Assembly: GCF_020360975.1 (NCBI RefSeq)
Contig: NW_025408673.1
Location: forward strand, 1,612,001-1,676,000
Reading direction: 5' to 3'
From: Hirsutella rhossiliensis
Taxonomy: Eukaryota; Ascomycota; Sordariomycetes; Hypocreales; Ophiocordycipitaceae
DNA: 64,000 bases
Below the pieces are notes generated by a model that saw nothing but the letters and a program-made list of their open reading frames with translations, did not search any database and was not told where the DNA came from. The position numbers and the translations under genes are program-made. Shown one piece after another: positions 28,853 to 52,300 of this stretch. Numbering within the stretch: the stretch's first letter is position 1; every line of letters starts with the position of its first letter.

Positions 28853-29871
28853 CTACGAGGACTTAGGCGAAGTAGACGGTGGCAAAACATTTTTCTCGTA
28901 AGCCCCCGCCAAGTTGCCTGCGAAAGTTAGTACTAGGAAAGGCGCCGCCTTAATAGAGTCCGAGACTTACCGGCCTCCTTGTAGTTGCACACTACAATGG
29001 TTCGCCATTGATTCTTAGGGCAGGCAACAGTGTTCCTGGCGCAGCCCACCTTGGTGGTTCCCTCCCAGACCAGCTGTGTGAAGTGTCCGGCCACGCCAAG
29101 CTGGCGAGGCTCACCGTACCCGGTGCTAGCATATTGTGGTTCTTCGCTATACCAAGACTGGGTAGGCTCGCTGAGGTAGTCATCTTCAGGGCCTAATTCT
29201 ATGCTGCTGGCATAGATGTTTTGGCCCGTTCCCCTTTCAGTGCCCCCGTGTGCAAATTTGCATAAGTTGACCCAATCTTGAGCCATTTTCTCGAGCCCCT
29301 TATCCCATGTCAGGGAGGGAGCGCTGTGGAGAGCTCGCAAGTCGTTAACCTTGGCCAGACCGGCTTTGGCATTCTCGGGGACGGGGCCCGGAGTAGAACC
29401 AGTGCCGTTACCGGTGGCTCCGCCGGCGGGCTGTGGTCGGGCCAGCTTGGGAGTCGAAGAAGGCCGGGGCTTTAAGTCTTCGTCGGGCTTGCCGTCATCG
29501 CCGCCTGGGCACGCGAGTTCGTCGCCGTTGTCGACTTCTGCGTCCGGGGGAGGCATATCGGCAGTTGCCGGGCGCGGAGGCATGGGAGGCTTAGAACCGT
29601 TTTCCCCCACCGGTTCGGGCCTTTTGGTCCCATCCATTTCCTCGGGCAAGCCTTTTCCCTTTGACCCGTCCGTGTTGGCCTGAGGACCCCAGTACGTGAT
29701 ATCCGGTTTCGACCCGCCCGTCTCTCCTGCAAGACCATTCCAGATGGTCTCGCCCAGTTCACCCTTCGAGGGTGTCCACCTCATCTCCTTGTTTTGCACG
29801 GGCACTGCCTCGTCAAGGGGTAAGGCCGCGATAAGCGGCAGTGCCAGAGCAAGAAGCGTAATGGAGCGCAT
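28853..29871 (-). CDS. Secreted CAP-domain (SCP/PR-1) protein
   Basis: Two exons: 29871-28971 and 28917-28853, separated by a 53-bp intron (GTAAGT donor, TACTAAC branch, CGCAG acceptor), giving 321 residues. The chosen start gives a clean signal peptide (MRSITLLALALPLIAALP). An ATG 30 bp upstream (29901) would add ten residues. A Gly/Pro/Asp-rich low-complexity spacer of about 150 residues follows. Then comes the CAP domain with NDLRALHSAPSLTWDKGLE, WVNLCKFAHGGTERGTGQNI, GHFTQLVWEGTTKVGCA and WRTIVVCNYKEAGN, which includes both conserved His residues. CAP proteins in yeast bind sterols and fatty acids outside the cell and are common in host-associated fungi. The gene looks intact. Confidence 0.88.
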
Positions 29872-29901
29872 CTTGTGCAGTGAAAGAAGGTGGTTAAGCA
29901 A

Positions 29902-31513
29902 AGAACGAGCAAAGAGAATGATAAGGTAAGAGAGCGAATGGGTTCAATAACGACAGGGGAAGAATGAATGAAATTCAGCGCCGTGGCCGTTATCGAACGA
30001 AACAGGCTCCTTAATCGAAAGGGGACCAATTTCTTTTATACCAATATCAGGTGCGGCCTATGCTTGCTGCTAGGTCACGTCCAAGGCCGTCGCGGGCAAG
30101 GTACGCCTCCCTATAGTTTCTTTCAGAGATCATCGGCGTGCCGCGGCATGATTTCATGCGCTCTAGAAGCTCTCCGCTTGCATCTCGACAAGTGCCGAGG
30201 ACCGCAGAAGGAGTCGGAGCGGCGCCACCGAGTTGAGACGAAGAAATTTGTGCGGGGGCAACGGAAATAACAGGAGGACTGGCTGGCTCCCACGGGAGAG
30301 GAGAGCAGATGCTGAAAGACAGGGATGATGGATGTCCAGCTGTTCAGGAAACCTAGGGATGCGCGTTTTGTTTGCAAGCAAATGAGGGATCATCTTATGA
30401 TCCACTTGCTTATGAGTCGGACGTTTGGTTTAATCATCATTATGCGAGCAGATACCTCGTCCGTTACGAAACCTTGGCTACAAGTCAAGTCCTCGTAGCC
30501 TGAGTATGTGCAGGGTGCATCGCCGCAGCGAAGAAGGACATCAGATGCGGAGCAGTGGATGGGAGAGTCATGAGTAAATAGCTGATCGGGCGGGGACAAA
30601 GCTAAGACGTCGCAACTAAGTGGGTTCTGCTTGACGAGGGGAACGGTGGGGGCGGAGGTTTCAGACGCCATACTAATCTCCGGGTTAATGGTCGGCTCTC
30701 TTTGGTTACCCTGATATGGAATATGGACCGGGCTTCAGCTCAAATGCATAAGCTTATCCGGCATTACAAACAGGGTCCAGGAGAAACGCGTGTTGCCTTG
30801 ACTAGTGACTCGACAACGATTTTCATCGAGGATATGCCTGACAACTCCGTCGAAACTTGGACTTTCTTCCTAGCTGATTCCTCCTCTTTGTGGGACGAGA
30901 TCAGGGCGTCAGCAGCGTTTTAATATCTGCCGTGCACGATTCCCGACGACGTAAGCACAACAATTGGCACGAAGGCGTTTCGCTAAATCAAGACGCGGAG
31001 CTTTTGAACTACAAATGTGGCTCTCTCAAGTTGGGAATGAACAGCCCTCTGGCGAGCGTCGGCATTACTGGCTCGAGGCATTAGTGTTCGCTAAAGGCCA
31101 AATGGAAGCTTGCAAGTCCAGGGAGCAGGCTTAGAAAGCAGCCAAAGCCATCGAGCAGAGAATCTTCATCTCCATGCAATATCTCGACGAACTGCTCGCC
31201 TAGGTCTACCACTTGGCAGACTCTCGATGTGATCAGTGCTATGTCGAGCATGCCGCTCTATATGCTGTGGTTGAGTGATAATTTCGACCACCAAGGTTGA
31301 GGTTCAGTGCCTAGACCTGGAATCTGCTCGTTGTCGCCGCCGTAAGCAGTATATTGAAAGCATGGTCGATAAACTTGAGCGTGCGTGTGCTGCGAATGAT
31401 GCATTTCGGCCGACCCCTGGTCAATTTCCGGTTCGACTGACTCTCCAGACGCGCGCGCTGCCCCCCAACGGGAACCCATGCCTTGGAAGGGCAGAAGTTA
31501 CTACCAGCTCATA
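29902..31513. other. Intergenic with unassigned open frames
   Basis: Two candidate exons stand out but cannot be named. One is a leftward 93-codon frame (30671-30390) containing SASDVLLRCGD, faintly like the start of a BTB domain. The other is a rightward series near 30702-31200 with RASAQMHKLIRHYKQGPGET and later WLEALVFAKGQMEACKS, interrupted by stops. These may be decayed genes. The right part is the 3' flank of the M3 peptidase gene. Confidence 0.35.
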
Positions 31514-33874
31514 CTAGCTGCAGTGGTTTTCCTTTTCTCGCACTTCGTTGTAGCAAAGCTCCTTGTATAGACCTGTCATGTTGAGAGGCCGGCCCAGATA
31601 ATCCTCCATGGTCTTGAGCTCGTCCTGGCTGCCACCTTTCTCAAGCACTTGTTGGCGAAACCTGCGACCTTCTGTCGCGCTCATGGGGTCATGTCGAAAG
31701 TATGTGTTAAACATGTCCGCGGAATACGCCCGGGAGCTACAGCCAGTATCAGCAAGACAGAAATCAAGACAAGAAGGGTAGAGTGGGGACAACAAAGCAA
31801 GCATCGCAACGCGGAAACAGGAAACGTCATGCACACTCTTAGAACACTCACAAAAGATAACTGTACAGCCCTGCGTCGTAGTCTGAGCTGATGAGATGCT
31901 GGAGCTTGGTCTGATTGTGGCCCCATTCGTCGCCTTCTGGCTGCTGAAGAGGGTACGTCTTTCTCAGCGCTTGGTTGTAAAGGGCAGACATGTTGCTATT
32001 TTGCACGTCTTGCTGACTCTTGGCTTGATGGACCGTCATGTCGTAGATGCTGAGCGCAAGCGTGAGCAAATGGGTGATGGCGGTTCCTACGTGTTTTGCC
32101 CTCAAGAGGGAAGCAATCATGTCATCCGGCATCTTCTCCGGGGGCTGGTCCCTTGCAGTTGCTCCTTGCTCTTCTTGCCACATCTGATAGTACTCATTCG
32201 AAAGGTATGAGTAGTGTCTGCTGAGCGACTGGACTTGCGAAGGGACCCAGGTCCAGTTCTCGAGCAGCTGGCTCGGCGCCTCTCCAAAGTCGACTGAGGT
32301 GCCGCAAGATCCGTGAAAGCAGGCGTAACGCGTGTGCGACACCATGTCGTGAACGCCGTGGCCGAGCTCGTGGAAGAGCTGCACAAGCTGACCATGATCC
32401 ATGAGCTTTGGGTGTCCCGGCTTAGGCTTGGAAAAGTTCCAAATCAGGACGGACACGGGGTAGTTATAGTCGCCCGTTTGTCGACGATAACCCTGACATG
32501 AAAGCACGGTCAACGATGGCACCGCTCAAGCTGTGCTTCAGGGTAGCAACTTACGGGCACCACGTTCAAAGCCGACTGGATGCCAGCCTTGGCGTCGCGT
32601 TCAAACATGTCCAGGTAGAGGTAGCCGAGAAAGGCGTTATCTCTATCGCTGTTCCAAACGCCCAAAAGCTGTACGTCGTCACTCCATGCACCGCATTCGC
32701 TGGTTGAGAGCTCGACAAATGTCAGCCCGAAAAGGTGCTCAAATATGCCTAGCAAACCCGAAACAGTGGGTTCCAAGCAGAAATATTCGGACACGGCCTT
32801 TTGGTCTATGGAGAACTCCTTCTCCCTCAACATGGCCTGGTAGTAGTGGAGATCCCACAGGTAGACGTTGTCATCACTGACATCATCCCCGTGGTTACCT
32901 CTTTCAGCATCGGCTTGCTTGACGCGTCTCAGTTCCTCCACTTCGCTTTTCCCAGTGATAGAAAGTCGAGACGACAGCTGCTGAAGAAAGCTGTTGACCG
33001 TGTCTGGGTCGCGTGCTAGCTTGGTCTCGATGCGAAATGCGGCGTGGCTGGGATATCCAAGCAGTCGCGCGGCCTCGTCCCGCAGCACAACGACCGCCTT
33101 GAAGAGGGGGACGTTTTGGGGAATCCGATTATGCGATTCCATTTCACATCGCCTTCTGGTCTCTCCGCGCTTGGCGTGTCTCATTACCAGTGCCGGGCTG
33201 GTCACAAGCAGCTTATCTTGATCCCCGTCCTCAACCTTGCCGCGGGGCAGACGAGACAAGTTGTCATCGGGAACACCATGAAGCTCCTCGTGGGTAAAGC
33301 AAACGCCTCCACTCGTTCTACTTTGCAAGAGATTCTTCTTGAACTCGGATTTGACAGTATTGATTCGCGCATTAATCTCTTTGAGCCGATCCTGAGCACT
33401 CAGTGGTAGGCAAGTGCCGCTGCGAACAAAGCTCTGGCACATTTGCCGCACTAGGTGCTGCGACTCATCGTCGAGATTGTCGAGCTGTGTCTTGACCGGG
33501 CCGACCAGCTGGTATAAATCTTGTCGGAGGCCGGACTCAAGGGCGAATTGATCAAGGCGCGCCCGGGCCTTGCTAGCAGCTTCTTGGACGTCGGCATCGG
33601 AGGACAACAGGTCGTACAAGTCCAGTGTACGTCCGTGGTGAATACGACTATTGTCCCCGTGGACAAGAGGAAGAATTACATTATCGAAACGGGCGTCTTC
33701 TGGCGTGACTTGTCGTGAGACGCGATCATGCGTCTCGAGCAGACCTTGCAGAAAGAAGTCGGTTTCTTGGACAATGGAGTCGGCAGTCGCCGTGAACCCC
33801 GGAGGCTTCTGCGGCGGCGACTGCAGGTGGTTGGGAATGTTTGCCAAATTCATGGGGGCACGCTTCGACAGCAA
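31514..33874 (-). CDS. M3-family metallopeptidase (thimet oligopeptidase / saccharolysin type)
   Basis: Three exons: 33874-32555, 32492-31852 and 31736-31514 (introns of 62 and 115 bp, GTAAGT and GTGAGT donors), coding 727 residues, the normal length of the family. The zinc site is FHELGHGVHD (His481, Glu482, His485) with the third ligand Glu511 in DFGEAPSQLLENW. Splicing restores NVVPGYRRQTGDYNYP and YLFSRAYSADMF, both typical. There is no signal peptide, so a cytosolic enzyme is expected. By family it cuts peptides of up to roughly 20 residues. It sits 0.7 kb from the tyrosinase-like gene and divergent from it. Intact housekeeping saccharolysin is normally present elsewhere in a genome, so this may be a cluster-dedicated copy that breaks down leader or spacer peptides (inference). 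Confidence 0.9.
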
Positions 33875-34583
33875 GTTGCAGTGTGTTTAGATGACTATAA
33901 GGCAATTAGCAGTCAGTCTGGTCGACGAGCACCAATACTGCGGCAGACTGAGACATTATCGTACCCGTAAGCATGTTCACGTGTCAATGCTTGGTGAGAG
34001 ACGACAACAACAGGGAATGATACCCGAGACGAAAGACATAAAGTCGTCCTACCGAGGCAGTGCAACGTAAGGGTCAAAAGTACGTGACACTGCGGACCAA
34101 CAACGCTATCCCACTCGTTTGTGAGACCAATAGGATGAGCAAAAAGTAGACAACGTTAACTAATACGTCACTCACGACGATTATGTATGCCGTAGATCAC
34201 CCAAAGACAAATTCTAGTAATCACGTACCTGGCCCTTTAGTTAGACATGTTCTATGCAGTCGTATCACACGGTGCGCAGGTCGTGCGACAAGCTTATGTA
34301 CATCTTCTGCAGCACGTAATACTCTTGGGCACGAAAGGGTAATATCATGACGCCCCGCAACACGTCTCACGTCATTGTCTCCCGCCTATGACAGAGAAAG
34401 TGAACTCTGTGGTTGCCAATACAGTGCTCCGAACTTGGAGCTCTCACTCTTGTCGAGCAACATTCCGCGAAATGTAGCTTTGCAAGGCTTGACGTACTTT
34501 GGACCTCCGGAGCCAGTATCTCATCAATTTTCGTACTTGCATTGCTAGAGACGGGTAAACAGTCGACGGCGCTGCCATTTACC
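33875..34583. promoter_or_regulatory. Divergent promoter region between M3 peptidase and tyrosinase-like gene
   Basis: 709 bp between two divergent starts, without coding signal. It would hold both promoters. No specific binding site was recognised. Confidence 0.5.
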
Positions 34584-36050
34584 ATGGGCATGTTCAACAG
34601 AGTGCTCTCCTTTCTGCCTGGACGCCAACAAGGAGCCAAATACGATGCTTTAGGGGACGAGGAGTCGAGTCCCCGAGGCAGCAGCGTTGAACCAGGCCCT
34701 GGAAATCACACCTCAGCCACGAAAGAAACACAACGCTTCCACGAGACCTTTCTAACGCGGAAACTGTCACTCGGCCCCATTCCTCTAGCTGCATTTTGTC
34801 TCTTGCTCCTAAGTCTGGGCTTCCTTGCCGGCGAGTTCCTCCAAGACAATGGTCTTATTGCCAAGATACAGCATGAGAAAGAGCACCGTGACAGCCACTG
34901 CGAGAACCCACAGAAGCGAGTTGAATGGCGAAGTCTAAGTGCCGCAGACAAGGACGAGTACATTCGTGCCGTACAATGTTTGTCAGCCAGACCATCCAAG
35001 ACTCGAAGTCATGGCAATCTATACGACGACTTTCCGTTTGTTCGCGCATACCTTGGCCGTCATAGTAGGTCACCTTTTCTCTGACCTTGACCTGAACGAA
35101 CAGGGACTCTCGGTCTTAACTCAATGTCACAACTTAGCCACTGGTGCCGCATCTTTTCTGCCTTGGAACCGATACTTTCTTCATGTTTATCAACAAATGC
35201 TGAGAAACGAGTGCGGATATAATGGCAGCTTGATGTGAGCGCCCCTATCTCGACATTGTTCCGTGTGGTAATCGCTGACGTGTCTTGCTCAGGTATTGGG
35301 ACTGGACAGTCGACTGGTGCGTATCATTTCAGCGATAATTCTCATTCTCGGAATCTCATTTCATTTAGGGAGTCTATGGCCTCATCGGACGTCTTCTCCG
35401 CAACTGTCGGCTTTGGAGGCAACGGCAATGCATCGTCGAAACAGGGCGTCGATGAAGCATTCTGTGTCACAGATGGCCCGTTTGCCAACCTCACCCTGAC
35501 ATTCGCTTCCTCATCATTCGTCGACCCAAAGATCCACTGTCTTTCGCGTCGCTTCCATGACGGCCAAATAGAAGGCAGAATTGCAGGCGACCAGGCAAAG
35601 CCGGCCGTCATTGAGCAAATTTTGGGCCAAGAGGACTATGACAGGTTTCTAGTCCAGTTGCAGTCCGGCCCCAGTCAATCAATAAGCGCGAGCATTGGTG
35701 GAGATTTTTCTCAGTATTCCGGGCCCAATGATCCGCTCTATATCTTGCATCTCAGGTACAGCAGTCCTTTGCCCTCCTCCTAGTTTCTCACGAGCTTCCT
35801 GGTCGTTTTTTTCTTTATCGCCTGGAGCTAACTTGCCGCTGCTACCAGTCAGCTCGATAGACTTTGGTGGACGTGGCAAAATCGGAAGCCCGATAAGCGC
35901 GTCAACGAGTATCACGGTATATCGCGAAACGATGAGACGACCCTTGCGCGACTGACAGATGAAATTTCTCTCGGTACTTTGCTGGCCCCCACGGTCCCGG
36001 TATCTGATGTGATGGCAACCGAGGCTGGGGTTCTTTGCTATACGTATTGA
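34584..36050 (+). CDS. Membrane-anchored tyrosinase-like protein lacking most copper ligands
   Basis: Five exons: 34584-35064, 35138-35234, 35293-35316, 35369-35755 and 35849-36050. All introns are GT-AG with consistent phases, giving 396 residues. Residues 64-85 form one membrane segment, so the catalytic fold faces the lumen. The tyrosinase scaffold is clear: LYDDFPFVRAYLGRH, GAASFLPWNRYFLHVY, LRNECGY, WDWTVDW, HCLSRRF, SIGGDF, PNDPLYILHLSQLDRLWW. At canonical copper-A positions there is Arg153 (usually His), His160 (kept) and Asn171 (usually the His of WHRYF). At copper B the PHxxI(H) region reads PSQSIS, and the HH pair is His328-Leu329. So four or more of six ligands are gone while the rest is well kept. 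Tyrosinases (UstQ type) belong to the ustiloxin pathway; here a non-copper or structural role is likely. Start in good Kozak context (ACCATGG). Confidence 0.85.
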
Positions 36051-36445
36051 TAATTTGTACGTTGAGGGCATGAATATAGACCACGTGTTGCCATGAGTGA
36101 GGAAACAGTGCTTGCGCTAGTTCACCCGGCCCAGATAATGCAGACTCGTTCTTTGAGACTCTTCTCATATTGTCAACGAGCAAATTGTGTGAGACAACTT
36201 GATTCGCGACAGGGAAGAACAGACAACTGGAACTCGGACAAAGGCAAAGTAACTGCTCCATTATCTGTAGCGGAACTCTACCCATGTCGCGGCAAGAATC
36301 GTCAGAGCGAGGGATACAATGGTCGGCGGCTTTTGTCTTAAGTGGCTCAAATGGTCTTGCAAGGCAATTCAGGATACCAGTTCTACTCCACACGATGAAT
36401 TGCTGGTCAAACAGGATATCGTTACTGGAAAATGCAAACCAACGC

Positions 36446-37621
36446 CTACCGTCGAGGTTGAAAACCACCAGTTTTCCGGTACCTTTGAGAGTTTTCGCGT
36501 ACACTCCGCGCACCCTTGCCGTCCCTGTTTTTAGCCCAAGCCTTCAGCTCGCCAAAGTCTCTGCACGTATGGACCGACTCAAAAACTGGCATCAGCCAGT
36601 TTCTGTTTGCTGACCATTCTACCGGGAGCAGAGTCATGTCGCCGGTGCACATTAAGCTCAGACGGAGACTATCGATGCAATGCTCTAAGAGATTGCCCAA
36701 CGTTAGCGGGACCGGCACAGTGGAACGGTCCAAACAATACCAATGTGCGGCTGGAGAGTGTAGTCATCCATTTCCGTGTAGTAGTCAAGGTGCCTCGACA
36801 TACGAAGCATGTTCTACGAGGGCAGCTCTTTAGTGATGGATTTCTTTGCCAACTCCCTGCGCGACGTACCAGACAATGCAGGTCATGCATAACGGTCAGC
36901 CTTCATCGACACTAGATTAGCAATCAAGGCCAGTATCCTACTCCGTTTCAGGGACCATCAAAACTCACTGCGCTAGATGCAATCCTGTCTCCGGATCCAA
37001 AAAGAGATCGGCACCAGGAAAGAGTTTCTTTTCTTCCGGAGACACTAACAGGGTAACGGCTGATGAGGACGAACAAGTCAGTATTCAGTCGCACAGCAAG
37101 GTGTGAGAAAGCTCATACGCCCCACAAGCTCGTCCCACGCCTTGTCGATTTCAGGACTCGGATCTCCAACGTATTGCGGATACGTAACTGGCCGATAGAG
37201 CATGTGGCTCTCGTTATACTTGAGAGTGGCTTCGAAGCGTCGCGGCTGCAGGGCCGGAGCAATCTCTTTTTTGGCGGTGTCTAGTTATCGTTAGGGCTGC
37301 TACTGGCCTCAGGAGGAGCATGCTCTTGTTACCGAACTCAGCCTCTCTCCAAAATCCTTGCCGTCTGCAAGCTTGCGACGAAGTATGTTGAGAGAGCAGA
37401 AGGGCTATGAGGAGAACAAAGGAAATGCTCCAGGGGACGACTGTTTTCCAGGGGCGACGAGGGTGTAAGCTGTGGCACTCATGTCCGCAGTGTGATGGGC
37501 CAATCGGAACACCCATGTCTAGCATTCGTTTGCCCTCACGACTTGATTCCCAACTTGGTCTCGGAGATTGTCTCGTCGTGGGATTCATCTTCAAGGCATG
37601 GTCTTGCAAGACTTCTGCCAA
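36446..37621 (-). CDS. UstYa-family (DUF3328) cyclisation oxidase
   Basis: Six exons: 37621-37333, 37280-37119, 37059-36969, 36900-36870, 36813-36741 and 36684-36446. All have GT-AG introns of 52-68 bp, and phases add up to 294 residues. One membrane segment (about residues 62-78, VPWSISFVLLIALLL) anchors it; the rest faces the lumen. The family signature of two HxxHC motifs is complete: HDLHC (186-190), split from the rest by an intron right after the following Leu, and HIEHC (214-218), followed by IDSLRLSLMC. Typical flanking motifs are also present: QYVGDPSPEIDKAWDELVG before and HTCRDFGELKAWAK after. UstYa proteins are membrane-bound oxidases that form ether or C-C cross-links in dikaritin peptides and related products. 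It is convergent with the tyrosinase-like gene. All motifs intact. Confidence 0.88.
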
Positions 37622-37949
37622 GATGTTGTAGGTAATTCTGGCTGGTGCAGGAACTTCACATCAATGACAGATTCTTTGCGTTGCATACTACGTGGATCCG
37701 CATCACATATGTACTCTACCTCGTCTTATCTTTTTTTTTGGTCTCACGTCATGTCATCACCCCAACTGCAATATTGGGAAAACGTAGTAGCTGCGCGGCT
37801 GAACGTGCCGTAAGGAGCGGGCAAGACTTCCACGTACTGTCATGGGCAAAATAACACGAGCCTCGTCGACATGGGAAGCAGTTTAGCACGTTTTCCATTC
37901 TTCCATTTCGCCAGCAAAGCGTGACATACACTATACAGACTCGCAAACA

Positions 37950-38666
37950 ATGCCTCAACGAATCCGCTTCCTGTTCTCCAGAGGACCATACAGAGTCGTG
38001 CCAATAGCATATCCGGAAACCGCCCTCGAAAATGACAAAATTCTCTCAGCAAGCGGCACAAGTGGACAGCAAGAACGACCGACCAATAAACGTCGGGCAA
38101 TGCTGTTCACTTTCCTGGGCGGCGTGGTCTGCGGATTCCTCGTCGCCTTCGTCATTACCTGGTCGTTTTGGCTGAGACACTCTGGGCCCCAAGGCCTTTC
38201 AATGAGCAAGAAAGAGTCAGCCGAGGTCGCGACGGCGTCTTTGTGTGGAAATTCATCAAGGGAGGCTGTGGAGCGTGGCTGCTCATTCGACCATCTGACT
38301 TGGGCGTGGTCTCCTCCAGGCTGCCCTCATTACGCCAACGATGAGTTTATCAGTGTGCAAAATTGGACTTACTATCTCGATGGCTTGGGCAAGGAAGTCG
38401 CAGTCGGGGAGAACTGGTCCAAGGCTCTGGATAACGAGATCAGGCTTTACGGCCAGCGGGGAGAGCACCTGACTCACTGCGTCTTCATGTTTCTGAGCAT
38501 GGCCCAAATAATCCGGGACAATGCATCACAAATTACGCCAAAGCTAAAGGAATATGAGCATGCCCATCATTGCGCATATTTCCTCCTCGAGGCCATACAG
38601 AAAGACGAGAGATGGGAACGGATCGAGACCAGAGTTCCTAAAGTCAACTACAACCAGCATTGCTAG
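37950..38666 (+). CDS. UstYa-like membrane protein with two HxxHC motifs (238 residues)
   Basis: Intronless. One membrane segment at residues 50-75 (MLFTFLGGVVCGFLVAFVIT...) follows a basic N-terminus. The lumenal part has the pattern CGNSSREAVERGCSFDHLTW with a WSPPGC, then HLTHC (173-177) and HAHHC (204-208), two HxxHC motifs in the arrangement of UstYa proteins. It shares the Cys pattern (CG...GC.(F/Y)D...W.P..C), length and membrane segment with the gene at 40572-41288, so the two are paralogues of a divergent UstYa branch. By analogy with the family, an oxidase acting on the peptide in the secretory pathway. It lies between the classical UstYa gene and the precursor gene. Confidence 0.7.
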   Translation: MPQRIRFLFSRGPYRVVPIAYPETALENDKILSASGTSGQQERPTNKRRAMLFTFLGGVVCGFLVAFVITWSFWLRHSGPQGLSMSKKESAEVATASLCGNSSREAVERGCSFDHLTWAWSPPGCPHYANDEFISVQNWTYYLDGLGKEVAVGENWSKALDNEIRLYGQRGEHLTHCVFMFLSMAQIIRDNASQITPKLKEYEHAHHCAYFLLEAIQKDERWERIETRVPKVNYNQHC

Positions 38667-39176
38667 CTAGATGATTTAGAAAGAACATCGTTTCACGTAA
38701 TCCAGTTCCGGAAATCCATCTTAAGATTATTCCAACCGGATATATGAACATTAAAGCAACTGCAAATAACGTGGGTTCGACCTCATGTTTCGCAAGAAAC
38801 TCTCTCTTTCGATTCATACCGGGTGATATGGACACGGGAAGATAGACGGGAACGTGGGCATGATGCCGTAGGACCGGTGACTATTACCATGGCAATAGCT
38901 CTGAAGTACAGGACGAGTGTATCTCGGTACACTCAAGCCAGTCCAGACCACGTAAGTCAGCGGTCAATAACGTGTTGTCATAGTTTTATGATGACTCTGA
39001 CATGTCTATGTCCAAGTTGCTTCGTTCTCATAGTTTCTGGGGGCGAGAAAGCCGGTTTAAAGCTGAGCCCGAGGAATAAATCATCTTACCAAGACGATCC
39101 AACACGCGGCATCCTTCTGAGACTTCAACTCGTCCTCAAAATTTGACCTCCCAACTTATTATTCTTCCAAGACAAG
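38667..39176. promoter_or_regulatory. Upstream region of the precursor gene
   Basis: 510 bp without coding signal between the UstYa-like gene and the precursor ATG. It includes an AT-rich ATAAATCATC near 39076, a possible core promoter element. Confidence 0.45.
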
Positions 39177-39773
39177 ATGCGTATCTCTCTTGCAGTCGCG
39201 GCCAGCCTGCTTGCCATGACAAGCGCAGCACCTCTGGCGCCGGGCAAGGGGCTGACTGTTGTCGCTGCCGCCTACGTTCGCGACACGCACCACGCCAACC
39301 CTGATGACAAGCGGGATGGCACGATCTATAGCAGGGCCAACGGTCATGCCTCGCCTGACGACAAGCGAGACGGCACTCTTTATGGCAGGGCCAACGGCCA
39401 TGCCTCTCCCGATAGCAAGCGGGATGGTACGATCTATAGCAGGGCCAACGGTCACGCCTCGCCTGACGACAAGCGAGACGGCACTCTTTATGGCAGGGCC
39501 AACGGCCATGCCTCTCCCGATAACAAGCGGGATGGCACGATCTATAGCAGGGCCAACGGTCACGCCTCTCCCGATAACAAGCGGGATGGCACGATCTATA
39601 GCAGGGCCAACGGTCACGCCTCTCCCGATAGCAAGCGGGATGGCACGATCTATAGCAGGGCCAACGGTCACGCCTCGCCTGACGACAAGCGAGACGGCAC
39701 TCTCTATGGCAGGTCCAATGGCCATGCCTCTCCCGACGACAAGCGAGACGGTACTTCTTACGGCAAGCACTGA
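39177..39773 (+). CDS. Secreted repeat precursor with KR sites (candidate dikaritin-type RiPP precursor)
   Basis: The 198-residue protein begins with a signal peptide (MRISLAVAASLLAMTSA, cleavage about residue 17) and a short leader to Lys45-Arg46. Then come eight tandem 18-residue units (residues 47-190) of the form DGT-(I/L)-Y-(S/G)-R-(A/S)-NGHASPD-x-KR and a shortened ninth ending DGTSYGKH. KR is the recognition pair of the Golgi protease Kex2, so each unit should be released as a separate peptide. Signal peptide, KR-bounded near-identical repeats with one Tyr each, and UstYa-type genes on both sides are the hallmarks of dikaritin precursors (UstA, PhomA, AprA). The unit does not match the cores I know for ustiloxin, phomopsin or asperipin. 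Units of two kinds alternate (TIYS and TLYG), so two related products are possible. Single exon; start chosen because it opens the signal peptide. Confidence 0.85.
   Translation: MRISLAVAASLLAMTSAAPLAPGKGLTVVAAAYVRDTHHANPDDKRDGTIYSRANGHASPDDKRDGTLYGRANGHASPDSKRDGTIYSRANGHASPDDKRDGTLYGRANGHASPDNKRDGTIYSRANGHASPDNKRDGTIYSRANGHASPDSKRDGTIYSRANGHASPDDKRDGTLYGRSNGHASPDDKRDGTSYGKH
39315..39746 (+). repeat. Eight 54-bp tandem coding repeats in the precursor gene
   Basis: Eight in-frame units of 54 bp, nearly identical at DNA level, with alternation of TIYS-type and TLYG-type units. A partial ninth follows. Such uniformity implies recent expansion or gene conversion. The other frames are also open across the array but only because the unit length is a multiple of three. 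Confidence 0.93.
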
Positions 39774-40571
39774 GTCGAAAAGAAGAATGCTCTACAAGAT
39801 GGCGCGGATGGTGCCCGGCGAGATGGTTCCATCTCAGGCGGGTGGGACAGCAACTCTGAAGAAAAGGAACGTTAAGCCACTATGGGTTGAGGGACATAGC
39901 CACCGGTCATGTAGCCAGATCACTCTCTTGTTGGTTAGCAACCTAAATTCTTGAAAGACGCATTCGGTTACTTTCTCAGTATTGGCGTCAACATGCTGTT
40001 CTTCAGGTCATTCCATTTATATGGTTACTTCTATCAGCTCGCTGATATAAATTAAGGAGTTTCTCTAACTTGTTCAAAGCCCTCATGAGCGCTTCTCTAA
40101 GTTTCAGTTTTACTGCTCATATCGCGCGCTGATACCTACTTTCAACTAGAGACGCGCTCGCCACTTGTATTATTCGGAATATTGCAGTTGCTTGGGCGAC
40201 TGGAAGTAAGAACTTGAGATCTTCGGCAACTGGATGATGAAAAGCAGCCAACGTTTCATCGTGGACCTCTCTGGTCTTTCCATCGTCAACGGCAAGACTC
40301 CGAGGCCAATCCGCGGGGCTGAGCGCATAAATTTACATATTGAGTGAGATTGAGCTGGAGCCTGTTTGCAATCACCCTCACGTCGGGTGACCACTGGTTG
40401 CTATCTTAGCTTCATCAGGCGAAGATGGAACCCGTTGGCAGATGTTGTATCAAAAAGCTCCAAGACGGCCCTAACTCTTCCTTGGGCCATGTTACCGGAC
40501 ACTATCACTCGATACATTGCTGCTCCATCAACAATGGGGTTCTCTCATCCTTACATACACGCACGAATTTC
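39774..40571. other. 3' flank shared by precursor and second UstYa-like gene
   Basis: About 800 bp between convergent genes, with only short frames and no recognised domain. Confidence 0.45.
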
Positions 40572-41288
40572 TCACCCTCTCTTCAAGCATCCCGCGAATC
40601 CGACCTCGACGGCAATAGACCTGTTCCAGTAGTCCATTCCGTTATCCGTCATATCCACAAGAAAGTTTGAGCAATGCATCGTATGCATTGCATCCGCAAT
40701 TATTGAATCGAAAAAGCGCCTGTTCTCGGCAAAGGCTCGGTACTGCTTTCTCCAGAGTGCCGCACAATGGACAATGTGGTCGCGCGTTGATGTATAGTAA
40801 ACACCGAGATCGCCCATAGCCTCTGTGCTAGGTATCAGCTTGGTGCGGTTCTTGTCCGCGTAGCCATGCCACGAGCCGTCCGATTGGTAGTCACGTATGG
40901 CCTCGTCGTCCATACACGGCTGCGGCACCCAATGATTGCTTAGGATATCGTATTGGCACCCGGCGGCCTTGGCCTCGACGGCAGAGCGGCCACATCCAGA
41001 GAATGCAGCTTGCTCAAAAATGCTGTGGTTCGTTCCCAGGTTCCATTCTTGACCTGGTGTAGCTCGGGCGAGGACAAGGCGAAACGAGAGGAATACCGCG
41101 ACCCAAAAGATGGAGGTGACGGCGACTACTAAGAATAGATCGACACGCCATGAATTGAAGGCGCGCGTCAGTCTTCGGAACCGTGCAGGGACGCGGATTT
41201 GAGAATTGGGCAGAGTGACGGGGGAGTCTCGTCTTGATTCGAAGCTGGAAGCCTTGAGAAACGCCTCGGTCTCGTCGGATGATGCCAT
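40572..41288 (-). CDS. UstYa-like membrane protein with two HxxHC motifs (paralogue)
   Basis: Intronless, 238 residues, the same length as the gene at 37950-38666. Membrane segment at residues 50-73 (VDLFLVVAVTSIFWVAVFLS...). The lumenal part has FSGCGRSAVEAKAAGCQYD, a WVPQPC, then HIVHC (171-175) and HTMHC (202-206), again the paired HxxHC motif. N-glycosylation sites (NHS, NRT, NRS) fit a lumenal location. By analogy with the UstYa family it would take part in oxidative cyclisation of the secreted peptide. It is convergent with the precursor gene. Start at 41288 gives a cytosolic, acidic/basic tail of about 48 residues. Confidence 0.7.
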   Translation of the reverse strand: MASSDETEAFLKASSFESRRDSPVTLPNSQIRVPARFRRLTRAFNSWRVDLFLVVAVTSIFWVAVFLSFRLVLARATPGQEWNLGTNHSIFEQAAFSGCGRSAVEAKAAGCQYDILSNHWVPQPCMDDEAIRDYQSDGSWHGYADKNRTKLIPSTEAMGDLGVYYTSTRDHIVHCAALWRKQYRAFAENRRFFDSIIADAMHTMHCSNFLVDMTDNGMDYWNRSIAVEVGFAGCLKRG

Positions 41289-41941
41289 TGATGATTGTCA
41301 AAAATGTGATTCCTCGGATGGTGATTTGGCCGTAGTAAATGGCTGAGAAACTAGGGGACGAGTCTAGATAGAGTTGTCTTTGAGTTTGTGTGTGTGGTCA
41401 TGATGCGACCAAGCGCTAATCGAGGTATGTGCACAGCTTCAGGCACGCATCGTCTTGCGTTGTGCCGCTACATGTTTGAAGTAAGCCTCCAAAGTACTGT
41501 CCTCTACGTTACGTGTATGGGTAACGTCATGAGCAAGGTAAAGAGAAATTGTCGTGACTAAAGCGGTAATCCTTACGTGGACCACGACAGTTGCATACTA
41601 CGATGACAAGAACCATTATGCCATGAGGTGATGTTGCTTTGTATCAACTACACACGCCGTCATTTCAACTACGATGAAGTAGTCAGCCGTCGGCAACCAA
41701 TCAGTGTTTCGCATTCAGAGTGAGGCGAGTAATTAAGAGTGACAGTGCAGCAAGGTGGACAAAGAAACGGTTTGGCCTAGTTGCCTCGAAGCCCAAAAGT
41801 GACATCAATGAGTGATTCCTGATGTTTATGTCTCGGCTTGGTATGCCACCAAGCTCATATATATCAATACCTGACAAACACTCCCTTTGCATTCGCTTAT
41901 CCGCACCACGTTCCATGGACTCCAAAGCCAAAATACCACAC
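41289..41941. promoter_or_regulatory. Upstream region of the second UstYa-like gene
   Basis: About 650 bp without coding signal, on the 5' side of the UstYa-like gene and the 3' side of the regulator gene. Confidence 0.4.
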
Positions 41942-42967
41942 TTAAGCGTTGATGTTTGCGCCGTTCTTCAAAAGCAAGCTCGTCATCGACACGGAACCCC
42001 CTTGCACGGCGACATGTAAAGCGGCATTGCCGAAGCAGTCTTGGACATTGACGTCAGCCATGGCGTCTAGCAACAAAATCCGTGCAACAGCTTCGTTGTC
42101 GTTTTGAACAGCCATGAACAGCGGCGTCTGGCCCATGAGGTTGGCCTCGTCTGGGTCCGCGGTTTTCCGGAGAAGAAGCTTGACAACGATCTCAGATCCC
42201 ATGGCCGCGGCCACATGCAGGGCGGTATTGCCTCTTGAGTCCCGCTTTGCAATGTCGGCCCCGTGATCCAAGAGTAGTCGCACCATGTCCTCGTTCCCGC
42301 CGCAGACGGCAACATGAAGGGCGCCCTGGCCCTGGCGATGAGTCGGACTCGAGGGCGCCTTGCAATTCCATTCAACGTCGCCTTCCCAAACAGCCCCGTC
42401 ATGGTCTTCATCTTCGAGCCCAATCAGGGATAAAGCCGGATCAAGAGGGCCGGAAGCAAAAAGTGAGTCTTTTGGCAGATCAACCGACAGCGCAGCATCA
42501 GGGGGGGAAGAGAAAGAAGGAGGGGTGAGAGGGATAGCAGGAGCGCAGTCACGGCTTGTAGTCGTGGGAGTCGTCATGGTTGAAAGTGAAGGCGTCATAC
42601 CAGCCGAGGCATCTTCAAGGGGAGAAGTTGCACAAGCAGTGCCAGTAGATGCAGATACATGGACTCTAGAATCGAGGAGGGGCTCTGTTGCGGCCGACAG
42701 AGACTGTGCTGCCGCCGCCTCGAGTGCTATGATGCGTTGCTTTTGGTTCCGCCCTGAAATGACCAAAGACTGTCAGTCATTTCCGGCTCGGCAAAGCGTC
42801 CTACGACTTGAACAGCGCCAGCAGGGACAAGGGCATCAGGGGGCCTAACTATAATTCCGCTGGGCGATCCGGTTAAGCTCCCGTTTGCGCTCCAACTTGC
42901 TCAGACCTCGCCGCAGCTCTTGTTCTGGCTGCTGGGCAGCGTTTGTTGCTGCCAAAAGTCGCGGCAT
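41942..42967 (-). CDS. Basic-region/ankyrin (bANK, TOXE-like) transcription factor
   Basis: Two exons: 42967-42850 and 42753-41942, with a 96-bp intron (42849-42754) that splits the DNA-binding region. Joined, they give 309 residues. Near the N-terminus is a bZIP-type basic region, with KLERKRELNRIAQRNY ahead of the splice and RNQKQRIIAL after it, not followed by a clear leucine zipper. A Ser/Thr/Pro-rich middle is followed by four ankyrin repeats (QGALHVAVCGGNEDMVRLLL, GNTALHVAAAMGSEIVVKLL, GQTPLFMAVQNDNEAVARIL, GNAALHVAVQGGSVSMTSLL). This basic-plus-four-ankyrin layout is that of TOXE, the activator of the HC-toxin cluster, and of similar regulators beside fungal metabolite genes. It borders the UstYa/precursor genes and is their best candidate regulator. 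The start at 42967 is preferred over an upstream in-frame Met because family proteins begin close to the basic region. Confidence 0.85.
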
Positions 42968-47277: not shown

Positions 47278-49332
47278 CTAGCCGCCTTGGGGCTTTGCCT
47301 GAGACGGCTGCGAAGTAAGACGGTCTCGGGCACCATTGGGCGTTCCCGGCTGTTCCCGCACGAGTCCCGGCCCAAACTTTTCGCGGATAAACTGCTGTAC
47401 GTCGGGGTTGCCTCCACGCCCGACAGCCAGCCCGTCTGGGTTCCCCTCCACCTTCAGTCCCTCCATACTCGTCGCCCGACTCAGCGCAACGTAAACCTGG
47501 CCCTCTTCAAAAGCCTTGGTCAGGTTGACAATGACGCGGTCCAGCGTTATGCCCTGGCTCTTGTGGATGCTCATGGCCCAGGCGGCGACAAGAGGAACCT
47601 GTGTGCGGTGCAGGAGGGAGTAGGGCTCCTGGTTGCCGACCGAGTTGACGACACATCCAGCGTAGATGGTGCGCTTCTCGCCGCAGTGGAACAACACACG
47701 GGGCCAGACCTTGTTGCTCTGCCCGCTCATGAAGCGCATTACTTGTCGTTCTCTGAGCTCCTCGTGGTTGTTCCTACGGCTTGTGGGCTTATCTTCATCG
47801 GGCGCCGGTCCTATACCTGAGCCACTGCATGATTTGGCTGTGGATGAGCCATGGGATGATGGCTTGGCTGTATGTGGACCATTGTATGGCTTGGCTCTCG
47901 GGATTTTGGCAGGATCGTGGTCTTCGAATCCGCAGATGATGCCTTGACTGCCATTGCAAAGACCCGCCCGGAGGTCGAGATTGACCTGCAGCACCACGAG
48001 CATGCCTACCCTCAGCTCCACGCGTCGTTCCAGGCGATGGTCCTGCAGAGCCGCCAAGGAGCCGTCCGGGAGGCGATCGTTGCAATGCTCCAGGTGAGGA
48101 TGCTCGACGTGTTGCCACACAAAGCCGTCCAAAGTCTGATAAGTGACGATCGGGGTCCGTAGCTTGCTGAAGTTCTGCAGGTTGACCTCGGTGACCTCTG
48201 CCCTTGTTGAGAAGAGGCGGGTTGCGTTGGTAACATTGCACGGGTGGTTCATCAACGTCATGGTCTCGTCTGGCGAGAATGGGATTCCAAGGCGGCATTT
48301 CTGGAGCATCTTGATGAAGTGTTGGTCGTTTTGTCGATGAATCTGCTTCAGGTGGACGTGAGTGAAATCGCATTCTTCCCATGCGTCGCTCATAAAGGCC
48401 CACTTCTCGTGCTCGCGGAACGGCCCATGGTTGTCCGGGCAGTTGTACTCGGTCCCGTGCTCATCCATGGTCATCTCCTGGCCGCAAGTGATGCAGTGCT
48501 GAAAGGGCTTGACCGGAGGCAGCTGACAGAAGTCGCCCGTGACGACGACCTGTGCTCCGCCAAACGCGGCCACGTTGTTTTCTTTCCAACGCCTCGCCTC
48601 CTTCATGCAGATGTTGATGCGCTCTAGGTGATGGTTCTCGACCATGCTGATCTCGTCGATGATGAGTACATCGGTGCTCTTGAGGCGTCGCCGGACATGC
48701 TTTCGAAAGGCCAGTTTTGTGAGCTTGTCCATGGGGACCTTGTGGTGGTCGGGCGTCCAGCCCATGTAGGACCACGTCGTGGTGCCGTTGACTTGGAGGG
48801 CGGCTCGGCCGGTGGGCGCCAGGGTGTGGACGATGAGACCCATGGCCTTGAGTCTCTGGAGAGCATCCTTGAGGACGGTGGACTTGCCACATCCCGCCGA
48901 GCCAGTGTAGAAGACATTGCGGCCGCTGGCAATCAGGTCGACCAGGTCCTGCTGCTCCTGGCACAGCTTGGGCTGAGGCTCGAGGGGAGTCTGGGGTACA
49001 GGGTCTGGCTGATGCGGGAGGGAATGAAGCGTTGCTGCCCGGAGCGGCTGCTCTGACGGCGGATCGGTCAAGACGACTGCCTGTGGTTCTCGGCTCGCGC
49101 CCCCCGAGGCAGTCGGGTCGAGCGAGTCGGAGCCGCTGTCTGGCGAGACACGAAGGAAGCACGGCGGCTCGGCGTCCCACCTGCGCTTGCGCTTACAGCT
49201 CGGCGGACTCGAGGGAGACCAACAAGTGCCCGTGCGCGACGAGTCGGCCATGGAGCTCTGGGGGCTGCCAGCTTCGAGTGGCGCACACGTCGGCGCCGCC
49301 AATGCAAGGGGGGGGCCAGGGACCGGGATCAT
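47278..49332 (-). CDS. PIF1-type DNA helicase with zinc-binding insertion
   Basis: Single 684-residue frame. Motifs in order: Walker A GSAGCGKST (144-152), Ia LAPTGRAA, Walker B LIIDEIS (223-229), VVVTGDFCQLPPV (about 262-274). A SIHKSQGITLDRVIVNL block and QVYVALSRATSMEGL, the last helicase motif, follow towards the end. The disordered N-terminus carries a KRKRR nuclear signal (47-51). Between motif III and the next helicase block sits an insertion with Cys280, Cys283, Cys298 and His302, a likely zinc site. A low-complexity Ser/His/Lys stretch (PSSHGSSTAKS) splits the second RecA-like domain. By family, a 5'-to-3' DNA helicase acting on G-quadruplex or replication structures. Fungi of this group carry many PIF1-like copies, some from mobile elements; no Helitron Rep domain is seen nearby. 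It looks intact. Confidence 0.85.
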   Translation of the reverse strand: MIPVPGPPLALAAPTCAPLEAGSPQSSMADSSRTGTCWSPSSPPSCKRKRRWDAEPPCFLRVSPDSGSDSLDPTASGGASREPQAVVLTDPPSEQPLRAATLHSLPHQPDPVPQTPLEPQPKLCQEQQDLVDLIASGRNVFYTGSAGCGKSTVLKDALQRLKAMGLIVHTLAPTGRAALQVNGTTTWSYMGWTPDHHKVPMDKLTKLAFRKHVRRRLKSTDVLIIDEISMVENHHLERINICMKEARRWKENNVAAFGGAQVVVTGDFCQLPPVKPFQHCITCGQEMTMDEHGTEYNCPDNHGPFREHEKWAFMSDAWEECDFTHVHLKQIHRQNDQHFIKMLQKCRLGIPFSPDETMTLMNHPCNVTNATRLFSTRAEVTEVNLQNFSKLRTPIVTYQTLDGFVWQHVEHPHLEHCNDRLPDGSLAALQDHRLERRVELRVGMLVVLQVNLDLRAGLCNGSQGIICGFEDHDPAKIPRAKPYNGPHTAKPSSHGSSTAKSCSGSGIGPAPDEDKPTSRRNNHEELRERQVMRFMSGQSNKVWPRVLFHCGEKRTIYAGCVVNSVGNQEPYSLLHRTQVPLVAAWAMSIHKSQGITLDRVIVNLTKAFEEGQVYVALSRATSMEGLKVEGNPDGLAVGRGGNPDVQQFIREKFGPGLVREQPGTPNGARDRLTSQPSQAKPQGG

Positions 49333-52300
49333 CGAGTCCAGTGAAGACGGTCATGAAGAGCGCGGATTCGGCACCCACATTCGCTGTCTCGTATTGGGAG
49401 GCAAACGACGCCTTATTGCATCGCCTTGAACATGCGTGTCGTCTGTTCACTGAGCGGCGCGATGCCTCTGCTATAGTGCTGTGCCGTGGATTACCCGGCC
49501 GTTGCTGGTCACGGGACCTTGGCACCAAAATGCAGCGCGACGAACGACGAGAAACTCGCTCCTGGCGACTATGAGCGCGCGCTCATCAAGGCTGGTTGAC
49601 AACATGGACAAGACCAGCAATAATAGCGAGGCTTCATCAGTCCTCGGCGACCTGTTGATGCTTCTGTCCTCGCTCGTCATCGCCTACAGCGACGGTTCGG
49701 CCCAAGCACTTTACAAATTGCTTCTCTAACAAACAGCTACCTAAACCGCCCGCCGAGCTTGACACGCATCAGCATGACGAGATATTCGGCGCCATCCTTG
49801 CGCTTCCCTGGCTGTTGGTTCCGATCATCGCTGCAAAGCAGGCCGAGTTCACGGCACCACAGTTCGAAACAATCTTGGCCCTGGTATCCGAGTCAAGCTA
49901 CGACGAGCCAGCTACGCCAGGAAGCCTGACCGGACGCCTCGGCCGCCCGAAGTCCACAACTTCAGGTCATGGCACCTCTCCCACCCCCAAAAAATGTTCA
50001 TTGCAGGCTGTAATGGTTCTGTTCAGCCTTGGTTCCCATGGCGTGCTGCGCAACATGACGTGCCATTGGCACTACTTGCTGTTTGAGATCATATAGAGCT
50101 TCTCTTTCTTCCTTTTCCCCCCAGACCATCTGGCCTGGTCAGCCCGCATAAAGTCCTTTTGCCGCGGCTCCAACCAACGCCGCTTATCTTGTCCTGTTAT
50201 ATCCTTGACAATATAGGACGTCCACCTTCGCGGTGGCTCCCAAGGGAGCTTCCTTCCGCCTCAAGCTTGGGTAGCAAGGCAGACTGCCAAGACTGTATTA
50301 ATGTGTGAGTGTGACTAGGTATATACAAGCAATTGCCTCGTACAAAGTAGGGTATCGTCTATAGCACTGAACGAATTCGGGATGTCGCGTCTCACCTCGA
50401 CTGTACATTTGAGGACCCATATAATCGATCTCAGCTCCGCATGTTAGTTGGTTCCCACGGCACAAATGGACTATTTCGTCATGGGAAGCTTATTTCCATC
50501 GGTGGTGGCCGACACAACGGTATGAGACCTAACTCGTCGTCGGCCACATGACGCCCGTAACGCGGCGCGGATAGCTCGAGAGCGAGCTCCTCTGCCTTGG
50601 GTGGCTGGTCAGGTTCTGCCACAGAGCCCGGGAAAAGACCCTAGCGTTAACACATGGCGAAAATGCTTCCTATCATGAGCGGTGTACTGAAATTGAAGTC
50701 GCTCTTGAGCGGTGCAATAGCATTCTCCACTTGCGACAGATTCTCTGACCCGGTATCGGTTTCTGCCGACAGATATAGGAAAGTGAGCTTGCTCGAAGGG
50801 TATAAAAATATAGTATCTTCTGTCCTCCCGAATAAACTGCTAGTCGCTGTCGCCTTATTGGTAATTTCTCGGTATTCCTTAGCTTTGAAGGCGTTGTAGA
50901 TTTGTTAGCCGGTTTAGGGATTACGAGTGCGATGGCCCCCCTTTCGAGGCTTCTAATTCAGGCTACGACAATTTTTCCGACAACAACCGCGACTTTAACG
51001 GTGCGATTAGCGCCTGTATTTGCTGGAGCCCGACTCCAAGCCTACCGTTACAATTTACGAAGATGCTTTCTTTAAGGGCGGGAATACTACAGTCGAAACC
51101 CCTCCTAAGCATGCGGTATGCTCTCTTATTGCCAGGGCCCGTACTCCAATACTCGCATATAAGTATCCGCTAATATCCGCTAATATTTATATAAAGTCGA
51201 TTTACCTACGGATTATAACGATATGACATCTCCCTTCCAACCTAGCAAATCTTCTGGTACATGCCTGTTTTTTAGGGAATTTTCTAATATTTATTATTAT
51301 TCGTCCTCGTTCAGTCCTTTGAGAGATAAGGACTAGCAACTTTGGGATTTTCGCTGAATTGGCCCCTCTATAGATGCATCTGTCCCGGGCCAGGACGATC
51401 TTCCCGACTATGACACCGGACGGGACGATGAGTTTAGCTCTATTATTTGCTCGAAAGAATCATTCCAGCTTGTTACACTCTCTATGGATATTGGAAAGAA
51501 AACTGAACTAGACGAGATATTTAAACGGCAGTACCTTGTGAATTTTTCTTTAAGTTTGCGGTTTTATAATGTGCTGCACTTACAGGCGCCTGGAAGGCTT
51601 CAAGGGCCAGAGCTGTCATTGCTAAACCCAAGAGAGTGTAAGGGAACAGTCACTTTTAAGGGGGATGCTACGGCTCCGAGGCCTTTTGATGTTGGCATAA
51701 AAGGTTTCCTCCATGGCTTGCAGTGTTGCAGGCTCGCTCGGCTCGCTCGGCCGGCCGGACCCAGCTCGAACGAGTGCCGCGCATGTCGCCTGTCGGCAAG
51801 GTTTCCTCTTCCATTTCGGCCGTGCCTTCGGGTCGCCGCGCCGTGTCTCGGACCCCGTTGGAGTGGATGTAAAACACTTGGCTCGACGGCTTCGTGCGCG
51901 TTTCCCTGCCTCACCATCGTCTCAAACGGGAGCCAATCACCTTCGCCTACTCGCACCCTCAATCGAGAAAATGATCACCGCCAGGATGTTTACGTAGCTC
52001 CCCAACATGCCGCTGGAATTTCGCGACTGCTGAGGGGACGTCAAGAACTGGCCTGCAAGGTCAACCTCCTCGAGACGAGATTTGCTGTGCAAAGCAGAAC
52101 AAACAGCCTTTGCCGAGGCGCCGTGCGTGCGGGGGCGAGCATGGCCGCTAGACGTCCACGGGGGTCTTACCTGTGGCTTGTAACATGCGCTGTAAACTTT
52201 CTCAAACTTGCGCAGGCTCTCCGTGAGTGTGTGTGTGTGTAGTCGACTAGTAGAGTGGACGGGGATTATGGGCACCCAGATCGGCAGCTGCGCAACGCCT

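Follow-up and report, generated by a model that had tools for sequence, protein, structure and literature searches.

A predicted dikaritin-type gene cluster of Hirsutella rhossiliensis with an unmatched core unit, a probable pseudo-tyrosinase and recurrent dual-HxxHC proteins

Dikaritins are ribosomally synthesised and post-translationally modified peptides (RiPPs) defined by a Kex2-repeat precursor that is cyclised by a UstYa homologue (PMC10512285, excerpted text). Among them, ustiloxin and phomopsin require tyrosinases besides their UstYa proteins and asperipin-2a does not, according to the excerpted part of PMC6514808, while AprY, the DUF3328 protein of the asperipin-2a cluster, is described as essential and copper-dependent (PMC6514808; PMC12435403). 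The DUF3328 protein CctR is an anchored lumenal dimer with two copper ions per chain at HxxHC...HxxHC, and its activity is lost on mutating the paired motif (PMC12435403). Of the 7878 Kex2-repeat precursors surveyed in PMC7329392 (in part), 1758 have DUF3328 neighbours. Clusters of this type are therefore common, and a new core by itself would be an ordinary find; tyrosinase genes show no overall enrichment around the surveyed precursors, but have a small peak two genes away where DUF3328 genes are present. The subject of this report is a seven-gene set in a 64,000-nucleotide stretch (the window), positions 1612001-1676000 of contig C7 of the 81.8-Mb assembly of Hirsutella rhossiliensis (Hypocreales, Ophiocordycipitaceae), which an initial annotation had read as a compact dikaritin-type RiPP cluster with an unfamiliar core peptide.

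The gene set is present as described: open reading frame (ORF) and splice models combined with Pfam locate all seven genes at 31514-42967, with the ends of the M3 and bANK models coinciding with 31514 and 42967. The splice models of the canonical UstYa, the tyrosinase-like protein, the M3 peptidase and the bANK regulator give uninterrupted proteins; for exon 3 of the canonical UstYa, acceptors at 37059 and 37044 both keep the frame open and the longer exon was chosen. The features are:
31514..33853, minus strand: M3 oligopeptidase, 3 exons (33853-32555, 32492-31852, 31736-31514), 720 amino acids, HELGH zinc motif; PF01432 347 bits, residues 223-706.
34584..36052, plus strand: tyrosinase-like protein, 5 exons (34584-35064, 35138-35234, 35293-35316, 35369-35755, 35849-36052), 396 amino acids, hydrophobic N-terminal anchor as judged by eye, with replacements at the copper-site residues; PF00264 94.6 bits.
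36446..37588, minus strand: canonical UstYa (DUF3328), 6 exons (37588-37333, 37280-37122, 37059-36969, 36900-36870, 36813-36741, 36684-36446), 282 amino acids, HDLHC and HIEHC; PF11807 129.4 bits.
37950..38666, plus strand: dual-HxxHC protein C, one exon, 238 amino acids, membrane anchor, HLTHC and HAHHC; does not reach the Pfam UstYa cut-off, with 22 C-type relatives in the database.
39177..39773, plus strand: Kex2-repeat precursor, one exon, 198 amino acids, signal-like leader, eight 18-residue units KR-DGT(I/L)Y(S/G)R(A/S)NGHASPD(D/N/S), then KR-DGTSYGKH.
39309..39773, plus strand: repeat array proper, from the first unit KR (precursor residue 45) to the stop codon.
40572..41288, minus strand: dual-HxxHC protein A, one exon, 238 amino acids, membrane anchor, HIVHC and HTMHC; without a Pfam match.
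41942..42967, minus strand: bANK-like (basic region and ankyrin) regulator, 2 exons (42967-42850, 42753-41942), 309 amino acids.

The best explanation, to which a probability of roughly 0.8 is given, is that the locus represents a ustiloxin/asperipin-type RiPP cluster, complete in itself, whose UstYa-type copper proteins would oxidise the predicted peptide, the tyrosinase being a non-catalytic partner or a relic. Judged by its genes, the cluster fits the dikaritin definition, product apart, and a dikaritin-type set with an unmatched core is well supported by the precursor, the UstYa, the two dual-HxxHC proteins, the M3 peptidase and the bANK-like regulator. The new cyclic peptide proposed initially is a predicted product. 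The classical combination of UstYa and tyrosinase chemistry is unsupported, since the tyrosinase is missing the His columns regarded as copper ligands.

Among described clusters, the locus shares with the ustiloxin cluster (ustA, ustYa, ustYb, ustQ and others) a Kex2-repeat precursor, UstYa-type proteins and a tyrosinase family member, P0038, annotated as ustQ of Aspergillus parasiticus, being 41% identical to the tyrosinase-like protein over 73% of the query. In contrast to that cluster, the H. rhossiliensis unit is unrelated (by inspection), conserved active-site His residues of the tyrosinase are lost, two of the three HxxHC proteins do not reach the PF11807 cut-off, there is an M3 peptidase and no P450 or flavin monooxygenase domain was found in the neighbouring ORFs scanned. 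The phomopsin cluster (phomA, phomQ, five DUF3328 genes) likewise has a repeat precursor, several UstYa homologues and a tyrosinase relative; PhomQ1' (P0085) is 40% identical to the tyrosinase-like protein over 73% of the query but retains the His columns lost here, and in the flanking ORFs scanned there is no S41 peptidase, while the one methyltransferase is a fragment 11 kb away. The asperipin-2a cluster (aprA, aprY, aprT, aprR) achieves macrocyclisation without a tyrosinase gene. Against its single HxxHC protein H. rhossiliensis has three, together with a tyrosinase-family candidate pseudoenzyme and a core of another kind; the flanking ORFs scanned show neither a transporter nor a reductase domain. 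By analogy, the cluster may work most like asperipin, with a gene content resembling that of ustiloxin.

The precursor begins with a short basic-hydrophobic leader, signal-like as judged by eye, and continues with nine KR-DGT starts spaced 18 residues apart, the ninth unit being short, as expected of the Kex2-type repeat precursor proposed initially (54-bp tandem repeat, 8.2 copies, score 585). It thus carries a putative endoplasmic reticulum signal and repeated Kex2-bounded units, both typical of dikaritin precursors. Every unit holds one tyrosine. Five of the eight full units are of the I-Y-S type and three of the L-Y-G type, I/S and L/G being strictly coupled. Over the 28 pairs of full units, which share a repeat history and are not independent, synonymous differences amount to 0.416 per site and non-synonymous ones to 0.056 (pN/pS, the non-synonymous to synonymous ratio, 0.14). 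Nine unit positions vary in silent bases alone and four alter the amino acid, the residue before KR being the freest, which argues that the core peptide has been conserved for its own sake. The repeat, the conservation of its unit and the canonical UstYa next to it support the explanation given above.

The earlier statement that nothing matches the unit held in the protein database, the organism's own genome, the plasmid collection and the papers searched, the DNA of other fungal genomes lying outside this scope. No precursor relative came from the protein database, where scoring covered the 7993 candidates with most words in common, and the precursor itself was not among the proteins returned, whereas A and C are present in that database; no second copy of the repeat array was found in the rest of the genome by a DNA search that skips simple repeats; and tblastn gave no match in the plasmid collection. 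NGHASPD had no match in the text of the openly licensed PubMed Central (PMC) papers searched, the figure logos of units in PMC7329392 being outside the comparison, so that the DGT unit may correspond to one of the types in that survey. The word Hirsutella is absent from the main text of that survey, supplements outside scope (PMC7329392, in part), and the one core described in the excerpted part of PMC7099791 bears no resemblance to the DGT unit. The sole weak protein match, P0001 (E 0.38, 153 amino acids), has no Kex2-bounded repeat and was therefore taken as chance; a Toc75 POTRA domain match of the precursor (19.9 bits, Pfam cut-off 27) was likewise rejected as chance.

The tyrosinase-like protein is a family member by Pfam, as initially annotated, but its copper-site residues are replaced. 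It matches the NCBI entry 'tyrosinase [Hirsutella rhossiliensis]' (338 amino acids) with 100% identity across 83% of its length. The NCBI model runs into the placed intron 4 and therefore lacks the last exon of the 396-residue model, which goes on to a DRLWW region and an ...LCY.Y end, as found in relatives. The closest relatives among the matches listed, at 48-50% identity, come from Colletotrichum (two) and Trichoderma harzianum (one), and a quick tree groups the protein with these three and one other relative (Shimodaira-Hasegawa-like approximate likelihood ratio test, SH-aLRT, 98). Among 57 relatives of 300 amino acids or more, 53 columns are conserved at 95% or above. The H. rhossiliensis protein has changed seven of these, namely five of the seven His and two of the three Glu columns, and has kept 43 of the 43 others. 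The chance of at least five of seven losses hitting the seven His columns is 1.4e-4, and in a leave-one-out control every other relative had lost at most three conserved columns. This confinement of the losses to five His and two Glu among the 53 columns supports the reading of the protein as a non-catalytic partner or relic.

In a wider set (120 listed of 287 matches, one of which is the query itself), the query's change at four reliably aligned His columns occurs in 0 of the 119 other relatives listed, with 3, 0, 0 and 6 gaps, respectively; P0113 has a different replacement, Ser, at one of the four. Since the remaining His columns are misaligned in that set, only the 57-relative alignment counts for the His at residue 162. 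Aligned with the solved enzymes 4j3p (catechol oxidase) and 6z1s (tyrosinase-like protein), the protein shows these replacements again at His154, at His171 and at the second His of HH, and with 6z1s at His303 as well (residue numbers of the 396-residue model). The changed His columns are those which we take to be the copper ligands. At residue 307, a further ligand position, the family itself varies: 64 of 121 rows have Pro, 50 have His and 7 have Ser.

A functional dicopper tyrosinase of the ustiloxin/phomopsin type is, by sequence, not found in the cluster. The protein is probably a copper-free pseudoenzyme and very likely non-catalytic, and the loss pattern argues for catalysis gone and fold retained, as seen in one genome where early decay is possible. 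That it is still needed as a partner is a tentative suggestion. Having lost the residues expected to hold copper, it probably leaves the chemistry to another protein. A tyrosinase with only its active-site columns gone and the rest kept would mean that scaffold and catalyst have been separated in nature, and the cluster would let one test tyrosinases as enzymes versus partners in ustiloxin-like pathways.

Of the three proteins initially annotated as UstYa-type, all carry two HxxHC motifs but only that at 37588-36446 passes the Pfam cut-off. Against PF11807 (curated cut-off 25 bits), the canonical UstYa scores 129.4, C scores 13.9 and A has no match. Both motifs are intact in the canonical protein, which supplies the UstYa/DUF3328 gene expected of a dikaritin cluster and has no relative in the PDB by sequence. 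Proteins A and C are 25% identical, their family profiles match strongly (E 8e-16), and a database search with both returned 73 proteins, A and C included, of which 50 are A-type and 23 C-type by the better-matching query. Two HxxHC motifs are present in 70 of the 73, whose names are mostly uninformative. Weak PF11807 matches at E<=1 occur in 5 of 23 C-type members (best E 0.0011) and 14 of 50 A-type members (best E 0.0029). N-terminal of the motifs, a CG.S..(E)A...GC...W.P..C region recurs in 12 database members aligned with the window and genome paralogues.

The AlphaFold model of A (mean predicted local distance difference test, pLDDT, 84.7) places an anchor helix at 35-75 ahead of two HxxHC helices, with HIVHC 171-175 in helix 168-187 and HTMHC 202-206 in helix 200-216 (block-mean pLDDT 92-96 there); the model of C has the same order of elements, more weakly (mean pLDDT 72.1). 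A UstYa-like architecture of a membrane helix and two HxxHC helices is thus predicted for both, which by these models form a family without a Pfam model yet of the same build as UstYa. CctR and other DUF3328 copper enzymes share the membrane anchor, the two HxxHC helices and the lumenal domain (PMC12435403); A and C differ from them in falling below the PF11807 cut-off and in having their own region. The HxxHC pairs in 70 of 73 proteins and the predicted fold of A match the description of CctR and so support a role for UstYa-type copper proteins. A recurrent partner family of UstYa build without a Pfam model would mean that DUF3328-based surveys miss part of the machinery. Together with the erased tyrosinase site it raises the cluster above an ordinary new-core find, and the few bearing searches of openly licensed PMC papers found no paper on either.

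Beyond the window, the association between the A/C family and UstYa genes recurs. The genome holds seven A/C genes at six sites, counts that are lower bounds because the searches score only the best candidates. Nineteen PF11807 matches were grouped into 12 sites, which with 10 kb either side cover 0.29% of the genome. Four of the six A/C sites have a PF11807 gene no more than 10 kb away (chance of at least four of six, P ~1e-9); omitting the window, where the family was noticed, leaves three of five (P ~2.5e-7, hand arithmetic). Repeat-protein ORFs were found at 5 of the 11 PF11807 sites examined (ten with about 10 kb either side, plus the window; the twelfth, C3:5732553, was left out). KR-bounded units are clear at three, namely the window, C1:6.67 Mb and C4:6.74 Mb, while the C3:4.25 Mb site has single-Arg units and the C17 site a short ORF with no clear signal. 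That four other repeat-protein ORFs are found near UstYa genes, two with clear KR sites, further supports the cluster assignment. The locus tags of tyrosinase and A/C relatives, compared by eye through database names, are not adjacent, although P0141 (A type) and P0172 (C type) have the same listed longest contig (145008 bases), which suggests but does not prove a single contig.

The individual sites differ in content. At C4:6739087 (minus strand), a tryptophan-containing repeat protein with a signal-like start and 15 copies of DEAWT (units DEAWTNALKEKRGSA) has a PF11807 gene about 6 kb away and the A/C-type dual-HxxHC gene C4:6743439 at a distance of 4 kb, a neighbourhood that by its sequence is a further putative RiPP-like cluster. 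The ORF at C1:6671178 (plus strand) has units AVEAINNQAGWGKRDT four times, with two canonical UstYa genes and one gene of A/C type nearby. At C3:4251876 (minus strand), a protein with 15 copies of NDYAV (NDYAVRSEN/DT), with single Arg instead of Lys-Arg, is situated about 2 kb from a single-exon canonical UstYa, and the 87-residue ORF at C17:72040 (minus strand), with ESSIVDNNWKTYVDDK-like units four times, is flanked by two UstYa matches. The A/C-type genes at C5:1926495 and C3:5523612 have no PF11807 match within 10 kb and no repeat ORF in the surrounding 6.5 and 7 kb, respectively; the C5:1926495 frame has one exact HxxHC and one HYTHHC-like site.

The M3 oligopeptidase, as first annotated, is borne out by its PF01432 score and HELGH motif. 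Its gene is the third M3 site found in the genome, the others being on C5 and C2, and it would be a plausible trimming enzyme for the cluster. For the regulator, the ankyrin part of the annotation stands (Ank 109.8 bits, cut-off 21.1), while the bZIP_1 match at residues 24-55 is weak (17.3 bits, E 0.0054, under the cut-off of 27.6); we take the protein to resemble bANK/ToxE regulators. In 48 of 52 flanking ORFs, scanned where 85 amino acids or longer at 19.9-31 kb and 43.5-47.3 kb, the only domains are transposase pieces and one methyltransferase fragment (19889-20530), 11 kb away; two of the four ORFs left out overlap the CAP protein gene, covered in a separate domain scan. The third M3 site and flanks almost without other domains support a self-contained cluster.

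A pathway can be proposed on this basis. The precursor would enter the secretory pathway, where Kex2 (and Kex1) would release 16-residue peptides; secretory Kex2 processing of the units is the step held with the greatest confidence. As linear 16-residue peptides, the units would have calculated [M+H]+ values of 1675.73, 1674.75, 1647.74, 1617.73, 1644.74 or 1661.72, reduced by 2.016 for every pair of hydrogens removed, and any trimmed core would be smaller. The anchored UstYa-type proteins, acting as dicopper enzymes, would then oxidise the region around the tyrosine to give a cross-link or a dehydro residue, a modification that is likely although its bond partner could be the adjacent Ile/Leu, Thr or Ser, without commitment to one. 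The M3 peptidase would trim the peptide ends, a role given somewhat less than even odds because the usual compartment of M3 peptidases does not fit. The bANK-like regulator would activate the genes, two products would arise from the I-Y-S and L-Y-G unit types, and the tyrosinase-like protein, without catalysis, would be a retained partner (scaffold, chaperone or substrate holder) or a relic. More speculative, and on balance doubtful, is the fuller proposal that a selected copper-free pseudo-tyrosinase serves UstYa-type dicopper cyclases as a non-catalytic partner, holding the peptide or aiding assembly, that A/C constitute a second, Pfam-invisible dual-HxxHC copper oxidase family regularly acting together with canonical UstYa on Kex2-repeat peptides, and that the product is a cross-linked peptide with a new type of core, made by a nematode parasite. 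H. rhossiliensis is an endoparasite of soybean cyst nematode juveniles (PMC4507137, in part), which makes a putative nematode-related role plausible; the same abstract reports that Hirsutella species have been transformed with Agrobacterium.

Several results weigh against a UstYa-driven, self-contained pathway. No precursor relative was found in the protein database, the genome or the papers searched, and the core borders are hence a guess. In hhalign, the A/C family reached a probability of about 2% against canonical UstYa both with one canonical sequence and with four (one a fragment), so common descent remains unproven after profile comparison with few canonical proteins; Foldseek with the A model gave no solved relative in the PDB at E<=0.001. 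M3 peptidases are usually cytosolic or mitochondrial, a poor fit to a role in the secretory pathway.

Alternatively, the cluster may be decaying, the tyrosinase being a pseudogene in progress and the pathway yielding little or nothing. The lost catalytic residues agree with this, as do the long end branch of the tyrosinase-like protein (0.99 changes per column, the median being 0.54), the truncated last precursor unit and the transposon remains in the window. Yet 46 other conserved tyrosinase columns are kept, the gene models are open, the units show a pN/pS of 0.14, and neither the M3 zinc motif nor any HxxHC motif in the three UstYa-type proteins is broken, which makes decay unlikely. A second alternative holds that the precursor yields linear secreted peptides, for signalling or as effectors, with the neighbouring oxidases acting on other substrates. 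Linear products may be common, since 6120 of the 7878 surveyed Kex2-repeat proteins are without a DUF3328 neighbour (PMC7329392, in part), and the D/N/H-rich stretches of the DGT unit offer no obvious ring partner. Against this, the precursor has a canonical UstYa and two dual-HxxHC genes as neighbours at distances of up to about 3 kb, and each unit has one tyrosine, a residue commoner in the repeats of DUF3328-linked precursors than in the rest (65.6% versus 38.2%, same excerpt), so that the linear reading appears improbable. Classical ustiloxin-type chemistry by an active tyrosinase whose copper is held by other residues is very improbable: His257, His328 and a displaced His160, two residues off the usual place, remain, and ustiloxin and phomopsin do need their tyrosinases (PMC6514808, in part), but five of seven conserved His columns are replaced, with changes at the four reliable ones shared by 0 of 119 other homologues listed.

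Other genes of the window include a CAP/PR-1-type protein directly outside the cluster (28936-29943, minus strand) and, at 16791-19043 (minus strand), acyltransferase (TRI-like) and enoyl-CoA hydratase domains fused in one open frame. An ORF of a PIF1-like helicase at 47281-49350 (minus strand) is a candidate part of a Helitron, and an Egh16-like (PF11327) protein at 58043-59230 (plus strand) is followed by a long low-complexity tandem-repeat tail.

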